Assembly (NCBI GenBank): GCA_018715085.1 | Contig: DVMI01000032.1 | Span: 1 to 33,627 of the forward strand | DNA length: 33,627 nucleotides | From: Candidatus Avidesulfovibrio excrementigallinarum | Lineage (GTDB): Bacteria > Desulfobacterota > Desulfovibrionia > Desulfovibrionales > Desulfovibrionaceae | Direction: 5' to 3' | Part shown: one piece after another, positions 11,742-21,621 of the stretch | How the letters are laid out: each line of letters starts with the position of its first letter | How positions within the stretch are numbered: the first letter of the stretch is position 1 | Program-made: the position numbers and the translations under genes | The notes under the pieces: model-generated | The model's input: the letters and a program-made list of their open reading frames with translations, nothing else | Database searches by the model: none | Told to the model about the DNA's origin: nothing

Positions 11742-12272
11742 TCAAGCGCGCTCGATGGTCACTTCATCCCGGCCGTCACGCTCGTGCAGCAGCACATTGA
11801 CCTGCTCGTCGCGGGCCGTGTTGACGCTGCGGCCCACATAGTCAGCGTGAATGGGCAGCTCGCGATGCCCCCGATCCACAAGCACCAGCAGTTCCACCCG
11901 GCGGGGGCGGCCGTAGTCGAGGATGGCTTCCAGCGCCGCACGGATGGTGCGCCCGGTGAACAGCACGTCATCCACCAGCAGAACGTCCTTGCCGTCAAGA
12001 GAAACGGGGATGAACGACTCGCCGATGACCGGCTTGCCAAGCGGCGTGGTCCAGTCGTCGCGATAGAGGTTGATGTCCAGCGAGCAGAACAGGATCTCGC
12101 GGCCGAGCCGCTGGTTGAGCACCACGCCAAGGCGTTTGGCGATATCCACGCCGCGGCGCTGGATGCCAAGCAGCACAAGCCCTTCGCACTGGCCGTGCCG
12201 TTCGATGACCTGGCTTGCCAAACGTTCGATGATGCGATCAATTTCGTCTGCATGCAGCAGAATGGTGGGCAT
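11742..12272 (-). CDS. pyrR: PyrR: pyrimidine operon regulator / uracil phosphoribosyltransferase
   Basis: A 176-residue PRTase-fold protein. The PRPP-binding loop VDDVLFTGRTIR and the downstream VLVDRGHRELPI-ADYVG segment are characteristic of PyrR and separate it from hypoxanthine PRTases. The ATG at 12272 has AAGGAGG five bases upstream. In Gram-positives PyrR binds pyr mRNA; in many proteobacteria the RNA-binding role is unproven and uracil salvage may be its main job. No pyr biosynthesis gene or evident attenuator is nearby. It lies 76 bases after yedF, with a GC hairpin (12308-12335) in between, and may be cotranscribed with it. Confidence 0.92.
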   Translation of the reverse strand: MPTILLHADEIDRIIERLASQVIERHGQCEGLVLLGIQRRGVDIAKRLGVVLNQRLGREILFCSLDINLYRDDWTTPLGKPVIGESFIPVSLDGKDVLLVDDVLFTGRTIRAALEAILDYGRPRRVELLVLVDRGHRELPIHADYVGRSVNTARDEQVNVLLHERDGRDEVTIERA

Positions 12273-12348
12273 GGGGGCCTCCTTAAAAAAACCGGCTGAA
12301 GATACAGGCCCGCCGCCGGAAGGCAGCAGGCGGGCGACGAACAGAGGG

Positions 12349-19391: not shown

Positions 19392-19916
19392 TCAGGGAAG
19401 CTGGGCGTATTCGTCGTCACTGACAGGATCCAGCCATTCGTTGCGGGTGTTTTCCCCCGGAACTTCTACGGCAATATGGACAAACCAGCTGTCTTTTGCC
19501 GCGCCGTGCCAGTGCCGGACGCCGGCAGGAATGTGCACCACATCGCCGGGATGCAGTTCGCGGGCAGGCTTTCCCCATTCCTGATACCAGCCTCGTCCCG
19601 CGGTGCACAACAGGATCTGTCCGCCGCCTTTTGTGGCGTGGTGAATGTGCCAGTTGTTGCGGCAGGCGGGTTCAAAGGTGACGTTGCCGATGATGACGCC
19701 TTCTGTGGAAAGCATGTTCAGATAGCTGTTTCCCACAAAATAGCGGGCATAGGCCGTGTTGGCCCCGCCACGGGGAAAGAGTTCAAAATTGTCCGGCATG
19801 GTGGCCTCCTGTAGAGTTTCTTGATGTTGCGCGGCAGCCCAGGCCATGGAGGGCAGCATGCCCAGGCTCAGGGCAAACAGCGCGCCTGTCATCAGTATGT
19901 ACAGTCTTTTGGGCAT
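19392..19916 (-). CDS. Cupin-domain protein with signal peptide and strong internal start
   Basis: A 174-residue protein whose N-terminus looks like a signal peptide (hydrophobic residues 5-24, SMAWA-AAQ cleavage near 27), followed by a single cupin barrel. Likely metal ligands are His90 and His92 or His93, Gln100 and His135 or His137 (motifs HIHH and GDVVHIPAGVRHWH). The long form starts at 19916 behind AGGAG. Met40 at 19799 has AGGAGG exactly five bases before it and begins MPDNFELF, so a cytoplasmic form starting there is equally plausible. It lies 222 bases after a CMD-family gene with the same arrangement. Such CMD-cupin pairs are seen in many genomes, with no settled function. Confidence 0.85.
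   Translation of the reverse strand: MPKRLYILMTGALFALSLGMLPSMAWAAAQHQETLQEATMPDNFELFPRGGANTAYARYFVGNSYLNMLSTEGVIIGNVTFEPACRNNWHIHHATKGGGQILLCTAGRGWYQEWGKPARELHPGDVVHIPAGVRHWHGAAKDSWFVHIAVEVPGENTRNEWLDPVSDDEYAQLP
19797..19810 (-). promoter_or_regulatory. Internal ribosome site and start in the cupin gene
   Basis: On the minus strand AGGAGG (19805-19810) stands five bases before an in-frame ATG (19797-19799), a better ribosome site than that of the upstream start. It would give a 135-residue protein lacking the signal peptide. Confidence 0.6.
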
Positions 19917-20138
19917 GAGGTGTGTTCTCCTGCAAAGGCTCCGCGGGCGGTTGCGAAGCCGGGATTTCTGGCGGCTGCCGCTGCAGCCGCCAGAACGGCG
20001 TTTTGGCAAATGCGGATTTTTCTGCAAAGAATGTCAGCAAGGCGCCACGGTCCCCCGGAGGCCGGCCGCGCGCAAAGGCGGCGGACAGGCTTTGGCGGGG
20101 CCGGTGTTTTTAAGGACGGAGCATGCGCATGGAGCGCA

Positions 20139-21023
20139 TCAGGAGTCCTGCATGACGGCATTGACGCAGCCAAGGGCGTTGAGTGTGCGCGGAAAGCCGA
20201 TGTACGGAAGCATCTGAGCCAGCGTGTCGATCAGTTCCTGCTTGGTGTTGCCCACGTTTGCGTTGCCCTGTACATGGGCTTTCACCTGCGCCTCACACCC
20301 TCCCAGCGCGCTGACAACGGCAAAGGTCAGCAGTTCCCGCGTCTTCAGGTCAAGTCCTGTGCGGGTATAGATGTCGCCAAAGCAGAAGGCGGAAAGCCAG
20401 TTTACGAGGATGTCTTTCTGACTTTCTGGCGTTGCAGCGTGCATTTTGTCGATGGTTTCGCCAAAGATCGACTTCTGTACGGCAAGTCCGCGGTCAAAGC
20501 GGTTGTCTTCTGTCACTGTGGCCTGGCTTTCAACCGGGAGCGCAATCCCCTGCGCGGCAAAGACGTCGTTGATCCGGCGCAGCGCGCTTTCGGTCTTGGG
20601 AAAGCCGATGTAAGGCGCGCACTGGTACAGCGCTTCCTTGATTTCGACCGGCGTGACGCCGTCGCGCAGCGCCGCCTTGGTTTGCAGGTCCAGTGGCTCC
20701 AGCGTCTGGCAGGTTGTGAGCACGACCAGAATGACAAGGTGGCGCTGCCTGACGTCCAGGACGCCCCGTGCGGCGATCTCTCCGTACATGAGGCGATCGC
20801 GGATGGCGATAAAATCGGGATCAGTGTCTGCAAGCGCGCACGGCGCTCCGGCAAATACAGACTGTGTGTACTGGGCCGCGGCCTGAACTCTGTCCGGCAT
20901 GGCTGCCTCCTTATGCTGCTCAACAGGGCTTGCCAGAGCAGGCGCGCCATGTCCGGTCAGAAACAGTACGGCCAGTGTCGCAAGGGCAGGGAACAGACAC
21001 CGCGCGAAAACGGCCTTCATCAT
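20139..21023 (-). CDS. Carboxymuconolactone decarboxylase (CMD)-family protein, two CMD domains, signal peptide and internal start
   Basis: A 294-residue protein. Residues 1-31 form a signal peptide (hydrophobic 8-24, APALA-SPVE). Two CMD-like repeats follow, about 55-150 and 185-290, each ending in a similar APYIGFPKT or LPYIGFPRT helix pair. The CxxC of AhpD-type members is absent, so a peroxidase role is unlikely from sequence alone. The long start at 21023 has AGGAGG seven bases upstream. An internal ATG at 20900 (Met42, MPDRVQ) has AAGGAGG five bases upstream and would give a signal-less form. A cupin gene with a matching design lies downstream on the same strand; joint action in a lactone or quinone reaction is only a guess. 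Confidence 0.87.
   Translation of the reverse strand: MMKAVFARCLFPALATLAVLFLTGHGAPALASPVEQHKEAAMPDRVQAAAQYTQSVFAGAPCALADTDPDFIAIRDRLMYGEIAARGVLDVRQRHLVILVVLTTCQTLEPLDLQTKAALRDGVTPVEIKEALYQCAPYIGFPKTESALRRINDVFAAQGIALPVESQATVTEDNRFDRGLAVQKSIFGETIDKMHAATPESQKDILVNWLSAFCFGDIYTRTGLDLKTRELLTFAVVSALGGCEAQVKAHVQGNANVGNTKQELIDTLAQMLPYIGFPRTLNALGCVNAVMQDS
20898..20912 (-). promoter_or_regulatory. Internal ribosome site and start in the CMD gene
   Basis: On the minus strand AAGGAGG (20906-20912) stands five bases before an in-frame ATG (20898-20900). The flanks nearly match the internal start of the cupin gene: GGAGGC, two differing bases, then CCATGCCGGACA. Confidence 0.6.
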
Positions 21024-21621
21024 GGCAGAGCCTCCTCTGAGTTTTTCAGTTGGTATCCTTTTGCAGGAAGATATGCCGGATGGAGGCTGGAAAACAGACA
21101 CATTCTCCGCAATTTATTGCCTAAAACTGGCACGCGTGGCCGGATTCTGCCCGGCATGCGGCTGTGCGGCCGCCGCGCCTGCCGGAAGGAGGAACGCGGA
21201 AGGGCGGCTGGCCCTGTGTCAGGCATGCGGAACAGCCGGCATGCGGTTGCCGGTGCGGCAGCGCTGTGTTGCAGGGCGTTGCGCGTCAGGCGGGGAGGTC
21301 GCGCAGGTCGTGGATTTCCGGCCGTCCGGAAGAAAAAGGAAACCGGCTGTGCATGGCCACAGCCGGTTTGTGCCTGCCGTGTGCAACCTGGTCATAATAC
21401 ATGGCAGGCAGGAGCAGGCACCGTGGCAAGGGGCAAACCCGGCGCCTGCCAGAATGGGGGGGCGGTGTTGCAGGACCGGCGTCTGCGCGTACAGGTGCTT
21501 TTTTGCCGGGCAGGCGCGGTTTTTGGCTGTGCGGCAGTGCCGTTTGCGCGCCGTTTCCGGCACAAAGGGGCTGCAGGAAAAAGACGCGCAAAGAAAGCAG
21601 AGGCGCGGCGCGCAATCCGCA
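21024..21621. other. Gap between the CMD gene and the thiolase gene
   Basis: No gene supported. It contains the thiolase-operon terminator at 21333-21369 and an AT-richer stretch at 21040-21130 where the CMD promoter should lie. Long plus-strand frames here are chance products of GC-rich sequence. Confidence 0.4.
21333..21369 (-). terminator. Rho-independent terminator of the AtuA-CaiB-thiolase operon
   Basis: Twelve perfect base pairs (21340-21351 with 21358-21369) around a 6-base loop, followed on the minus strand by CCTTTTTCT. It lies about 250 bases after the thiolase stop. Confidence 0.75.

Follow-up and report, generated by a model that had tools for sequence, protein, structure and literature searches.

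Two adjoining genes of Candidatus Avidesulfovibrio excrementigallinarum, encoding a two-domain carboxymuconolactone-decarboxylase-like protein (CMD) and a small cupin, are probably dual-start genes, in which export signals were joined in front of old cytosolic starts and both forms of each protein are made. The two unrelated enzyme genes lie on the minus strand of the window, that is, the whole stretch of 33,627 nt analysed (contig DVMI01000032.1; coordinates are 1-based in the window), with CMD (21023-20139) upstream and the cupin (19916-19392) downstream. Signal peptides (SP) were called by eye and with a simple rule. The features of the two genes, including their Shine-Dalgarno (SD) sites, are as follows.

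20139..21023, minus strand: CMD gene, long (predicted exported) frame, 294 aa, two carboxymuconolactone-decarboxylase domains (PF02627, E 3e-37)
21031..21038, minus strand: SD of the CMD export start, AGAGGAGG, 7-base gap to the ATG at 21023, -12.0 kcal/mol
20931..21023, minus strand: predicted Sec-type signal peptide of CMD, 31 residues ending ALA, with n, h and c regions by inspection; a signal peptide is also present in homologues
20901..20930, minus strand: CMD linker SPVEQHKEAA, ten residues, holding the internal SD
20906..20913, minus strand: internal SD of CMD, TAAGGAGG, then cagcc, -12.2 kcal/mol
20139..20900, minus strand: predicted short (cytosolic) CMD form, beginning MPDRVQ, 253 aa; SP-less homologues begin here
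19392..19916, minus strand: cupin gene, long (predicted exported) frame, 174 aa, PF07883
19927..19931, minus strand: SD of the cupin export start, AGGAG, 10-base gap to the ATG at 19916, -7.4 kcal/mol
19836..19916, minus strand: predicted Sec-type signal peptide of the cupin, 27 residues ending AWA
19800..19835, minus strand: cupin linker AAQHQETLQEAT, 12 residues, holding the internal SD
19805..19810, minus strand: internal SD of the cupin, AGGAGG, then ccacc, -10.3 kcal/mol
19392..19799, minus strand: predicted short (cytosolic) cupin form, beginning MPDNFEL, 135 aa; cytosolic homologues begin here

The CMD product starts with MMKAVFARCLFPALATLAVLFLTGHGAPALA as signal peptide followed by SPVEQHKEAA, and the cupin starts with MPKRLYILMTGALFALSLGMLPSMAWA followed by its linker. 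Judged by sequence features, the long forms carry an export signal and the short forms do not. In both genes, a plausible SD precedes each of the two in-frame starts. In agreement with the original prediction, the signal-peptide start is followed 39-41 residues later by an internal in-frame ATG (at 20900, 41 residues in, for CMD; at 19799, 39 residues in, for the cupin), and (A)AGGAGG stands exactly five bases before this ATG in both genes. The energies (-12.2 at the internal against -12.0 kcal/mol at the first site of CMD, and -10.3 against -7.4 kcal/mol in the cupin) indicate that the internal site is at least as strong as the gene's own first start in each case.

The CMD protein matched PF02627 with 126.9 bits over two domains (gathering cut-off 23), and the cupin matched PF07883 (Cupin_2) with 31 bits (gathering cut-off 27.2). 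Against TIGR02425 (PcaC), the CMD protein scored 107.3 bits (E 5e-31), below the curated cut-off of 155.7, and it was rejected as a PcaC equivalog; it shares the CMD fold and two CMD domains with PcaC and with PDB entries 2af7 and 4g9q. The cupin scored 112.2 bits (E 1e-32) against NF049940 ((R)-mandelonitrile lyase), below the curated cut-off of 140, and this activity is not claimed for it, although the cupins of that family and PDB entries 2f4p (TM1010), 4bif and 4uxa are likewise small and single-domain. Because both proteins fall below these curated cut-offs, their reactions were not assigned.

The internal sites had been described as nearly identical in spite of the unrelated proteins, and the common block GGAGGCnnCCATGCCGGACA indeed agrees in 18 of 20 bases. 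With up to three mismatches allowed, the window holds three matches to the common start pattern, where 0.05 would be expected. Across the 2.14-Mb assembly, AGGAGGN5ATG was found 35 times, compared with three times for the reversed control; the other sites are nearly all ordinary gene starts, with few chance matches, and only those of CMD and the cupin sit in frame behind a signal peptide. A 409-kb sample served as a rough background, as the crude gene caller missed the cupin (a longer shadow ORF was taken) and the SP rule admits a few non-SP proteins: 3 of 206 genes without a signal peptide had an in-frame ATG with an SD energy of -7 or lower within codons 25-52; of the 38 SP-like genes, the window CMD alone had a credible internal site at the junction, the one further match being a false signal peptide. 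The internal sites of CMD and the cupin are not due to chance. The exact sequence GGAGGCNNCCATGCC is present in three copies genome-wide, all of them in the window, and the third copy is a comparison site at the start of a pyrR-like gene.

12263..12282, minus strand: start of the pyrR-like gene, GGAGGCCCCCATGCCCACCA; start at 12272, intergenic, no signal peptide

This ordinary start is also the sole exact GGAGGCnnCCATGCC in the genome besides CMD and the cupin. Since the third exact copy is an ordinary gene start, the block is how a strong start looks in this genome, a consensus strong start common to the two genes. Elsewhere in the same genome (L259; G000:C45:10900-11900, ATG at 540), AGGAGG-N5-ATG was seen behind the membrane segment of a small membrane-anchored protein, where an internal start would yield a 34-residue soluble form.

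In total, 77 CMD and 74 cupin homologues were gathered. Their alignment, a check proposed beforehand, showed that cytosolic CMDs and cupins have the internal Met as their first residue, behind a normal SD, while exported ones carry a signal peptide upstream and most retain the SD and Met at the junction; in the Desulfovibrionaceae and Brachyspira sets, 41 exported CMDs and 18 exported cupins keep the SD at the internal ATG. A cultured relative, Desulfovibrio sp. ZJ369 (L061), has a CMD with both a signal peptide and the internal ATG. These starts support the earlier suggestion that signal peptides were added before older cytosolic genes. The signals before the retained start are of Sec type in Desulfovibrionaceae, of Tat type in a separate CMD subfamily (L143-L145, with a strong internal SD in L144 and L145 and a weak one in L143), and of lipoprotein type in Brachyspira. 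In the CMD tree, the Tat group and the lipoprotein group form one clade each, and within the Desulfovibrionaceae clade cytosolic copies branch from among exported ones at three or more points. Such nesting may reflect either repeated signal gain before working starts or repeated takeover by the internal start after signal loss, and both readings of the tree would need a working internal start.

In the cupin L179 (the same gene as L040), the signal peptide is followed by GMKRMPAYGDSG, a stump of an SGNH-like hydrolase (GMKRILVFGDSN) that is fused whole in front of the cupin in L037, L041, L043, and L044. The stump presumably arose by deletion, and this cupin would then show how a signal is captured. 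Other CMD-like domains are fused ahead of a cupin in one frame in L057, L217, L218, L221, L222, L226, and L228, and some fusions of this set have a weak SD before the cupin Met.

The mean SD energy at the internal ATG of the 41 SP-bearing CMDs was -8.4 kcal/mol, compared with -2.5 kcal/mol at 202 other in-frame ATGs, and an energy of -5 was reached by 93% of the former and 18% of the latter. Relative to synonymous-codon shuffles, 30 Desulfovibrionaceae CMD rows gave a mean of -7.84 against -4.83 +/- 0.38 (z about -8) and the 18 exported cupins gave -8.6 against -4.6 +/- 0.68 (z about -6), pooled z values that overstate independence because the rows are related. The excess belongs to the pooled sets, the single-gene shuffle p values being mostly not significant (window CMD p 0.13, cupin p 0.34). 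In 22 non-redundant CMDs with both signal peptide and Met, information peaks at positions -12 to -9 (GGAG) with 1.3-1.5 bits, and flanking columns are mostly weak. Base -10, a codon wobble position, is A in 20 of the 22, although 8% of fourfold sites carry A and GGA accounts for 10% of Gly codons; the codon after GGA encodes Ala, Val, Glu or Gly, yet begins with G. Of these 22 exported CMDs, 18 have GGAG at this position, compared with 2.5% of windows from the rest of the signal region.

The mean core identity of the 22 CMDs is 67%, and identity at their fourfold sites is 0.50, where saturation would give 0.37; with fourfold sites this near to saturation, an unused motif would have blurred by age alone. 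The codon frame of the SD is AAG GAG in the window CMD and most exported cupins and GGA G in most CMDs, from which it follows that the genes have an RNA motif in common and not a peptide. In Brachyspira, codon usage already predicts an SD of this strength, since most Gly codons there are GGA, and some CMD rows with signal peptide and Met have a weak SD (L018, L019, L021, and L126). Strong SDs within genes are reported to be generally depleted (PMC5100845), which makes their retention in CMD and the cupin more telling. For the Desulfovibrionaceae set, on which selection was measured (the nearest orthologues of the window genes are ~70% identical), these patterns suggest that the internal start is under selection and is not a leftover.

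Fifteen exported CMDs have no internal ATG, and 11 of these have lost GGAG as well. The motif is kept in L120, L023, L116, and L119; in L119 (genome G042), TTG replaces the internal ATG and the SD is intact (GGAG, 5-base gap). The difference in GGAG between CMDs with and without the internal ATG (4/15 in the latter) has a p value of 0.005, which is slightly conservative. A separate cytosolic CMD accompanied an ATG-less SP-CMD in 8 of 15 genomes and an ATG-bearing one in 0 of 24 (Fisher 1e-4, phylogeny ignored; in phylogenetic terms there were about six ATG losses, and a second CMD copy is present in two or three of these cases). Six or seven of the genomes with an ATG-less SP-CMD had no detected cytosolic copy, one of them being G042 with its TTG. 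Incomplete assemblies are perhaps part of the reason, and the cytosolic CMD form is apparently not always needed, given these genomes.

Within one clade, the CMD copy of L019, L020, L021, and L127 is exported, has the ATG and is the only CMD of this group in its genome, whereas the copy of L024-L027 is cytosolic and those genomes also hold an exported-only copy (four versus four genomes; Fisher 0.029, phylogeny ignored). Among the cupins, a separate cytosolic copy accompanies four of five without the internal ATG versus 0 of 17 with it, again with phylogeny ignored; each genome with one of the four ATG-less SGNH-cupin fusions also has a separate cytosolic cupin. This pattern of paralogues looks like the splitting of a dual gene into two. 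By hand tally, genomes with one CMD and one cupin pair a cytosolic CMD with a cytosolic cupin in 5 of 5 cases and an exported CMD with an exported cupin in 12 of 21 (Fisher 0.04).

The main rival to the dual-start reading is that the signal was added recently, so that the old SD and ATG have not yet eroded and the exported form alone matters; it holds this place because the genome has no close orthologue (nearest ~70%). Cytosolic homologues begin at the internal site, the cupin family is mostly cytosolic, some lineages have shed the ATG and SD harmlessly, L179 is a fresh signal-peptide capture, and the tree permits several independent gains of signal peptides, all of which would fit such a leftover. 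However, 18 of the 22 exported CMDs still have GGAG with its rare wobble A, although their identity is 67% and their fourfold sites are near saturation, near-consensus sites are kept by two adjoining genes, and loss of the ATG accompanies a separate cytosolic copy. We therefore regard a recent, uneroded leftover as unlikely, though deserving serious weight. It is very improbable that the upstream start is unused, the internal start alone being real and the apparent signal peptide an untranslated leader. The stronger SD at the internal site of the cupin (-10.3 versus -7.4 kcal/mol upstream) would suit this, but the upstream SD of CMD reaches -12.0 kcal/mol, about 40 CMD homologues encode signal peptides there with n, h and c regions and a cleavage motif, and 15 homologues without the internal ATG must initiate upstream.

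An internal SD could also act as a programmed ribosome pause that aids membrane targeting, an idea put forward for membrane proteins of E. coli (PMC4359368), and its position at codons 36-39 is near the reported pause zones (codons 16-36 and 40-60). The early codons of periplasmic proteins are, however, reported to be depleted in pauses and not enriched (PMC4359368); the SD stands at start spacing from the ATG, coincides with the start of cytosolic homologues, and decays on ATG loss though the signal peptide stays. As the SD tracks the ATG and not the signal peptide, the pause is disfavoured and we give it hardly any credence. The original prediction also raised the copying of a 5' cassette, and the 18 of 20 identical bases in unrelated genes, together with the confinement of all three exact GGAGGCNNCCATGCC copies to the window, would fit a copy that included the start and passed between CMD and the cupin by gene conversion. 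That proposal failed: the local alignment of the CMD and cupin 5' regions stops at the 21-base start block, the cupin L169 of another genus has its own CAGGAGGCgACgATG, and the third exact match is the ordinary pyrR-like start without a signal peptide, which leaves the cassette with next to no probability.

Under the preferred dual-start reading, once-cytosolic enzymes would have gained an in-frame N-terminal export signal upstream, with the old ribosome site and ATG remaining inside the new linker. Initiation at the first ATG would give a precursor for export, to be trimmed at a point about ten residues ahead of the internal Met, and initiation at the internal ATG would give an almost identical protein that has no export signal and remains in the cytoplasm; the two forms would differ by about ten linker residues. 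Sequence comparison shows the two starts, an internal Met at the start of cytosolic homologues, an SD beyond codon expectation and its decay on ATG loss. From this we infer use of the internal start in this organism, export of the long form, and selection for the possession of both forms. The earlier claim that both forms could be made has indirect support from SD selection, SD decay after ATG loss and the paralogue pattern.

Flavodoxin-like genes with a Tat-type signal were seen near the CMDs of relatives (L093:2643-3260, L095:1816-2481, and L090:4636-5313), with a strong SD and an ATG exactly at the start of the flavodoxin domain (MLILYFSHSGNT); their junctions read aaggaggacaatATG, aaggaggcagcATG, and aggagaacagaccATG, respectively. 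FMN-reductase-like genes with a Tat-type signal (L095:918-1643 and L099:4239-4973) have a weaker comparable site (gaaggaaaatctATG and aaaggaaatcccATG). As the flavodoxin-like genes share the same junction, the class may be wider. Tentatively, and with somewhat more doubt than confidence, we propose that in Desulfovibrionaceae, and perhaps in other anaerobes, export signals may repeatedly have been put before intact starts of small cytosolic enzymes (CMD, cupin, flavodoxin-like), giving a standing class of one-gene, two-compartment genes that would be kept by selection on the internal SD and would later duplicate into exported-only and cytosolic-only genes.

A few bacterial genes with two starts and two compartments have been described, each as a single case, and annotation pipelines retain one start. 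Here, comparison of sequences by itself indicates that two enzyme families retain an internal start at the level of RNA, behind Sec, Tat and lipoprotein signals, and relatives appear to divide the two roles between paralogues. The comparison also cautions that start calls for genes of this kind are systematically ambiguous. These genes could offer a bacterial test bed for change of compartment, in which a signal is attached, both forms are kept, and specialisation follows.

Dual in-frame starts around a signal are already known singly (SpeA, PagC, and OmpX). Repeated attachment of signals before intact starts with later splitting was not found in a literature search that was thin on subscription papers. 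The E. coli speA proteoforms resemble CMD and the cupin in that one gene has two in-frame starts; the short form is without 26 N-terminal residues, and the forms have been linked to different compartments (PMC13245402). However, speA is a single E. coli gene, whereas the design described here is repeated in two adjoining unrelated genes and several families and, unlike speA, shows SD conservation and signs of gene splitting. Salmonella PagC and OmpX likewise have one start before and one behind a Sec signal peptide, with a short form that is SP-less, and these starts are backed by Ribo-RET (PMC11005335); PagC and OmpX are outer-membrane barrels with no evident cytosolic role, while CMD and the cupin have cytosolic homologues that start at the internal site. 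Two-polypeptide phage endolysins also have two in-frame ORFs in one gene with a common stop but are lytic enzymes without export signal or compartment division (PMC9430671). Finally, dual targeting in eukaryotes, through alternative starts or leaky targeting, places the product of one gene in two compartments as proposed here, and duplication is reported to be able to split the roles later (PMC4526572, PMC12718117); the eukaryotic case concerns organelles, whereas CMD and the cupin would rely on SD-driven initiation across the bacterial inner membrane.
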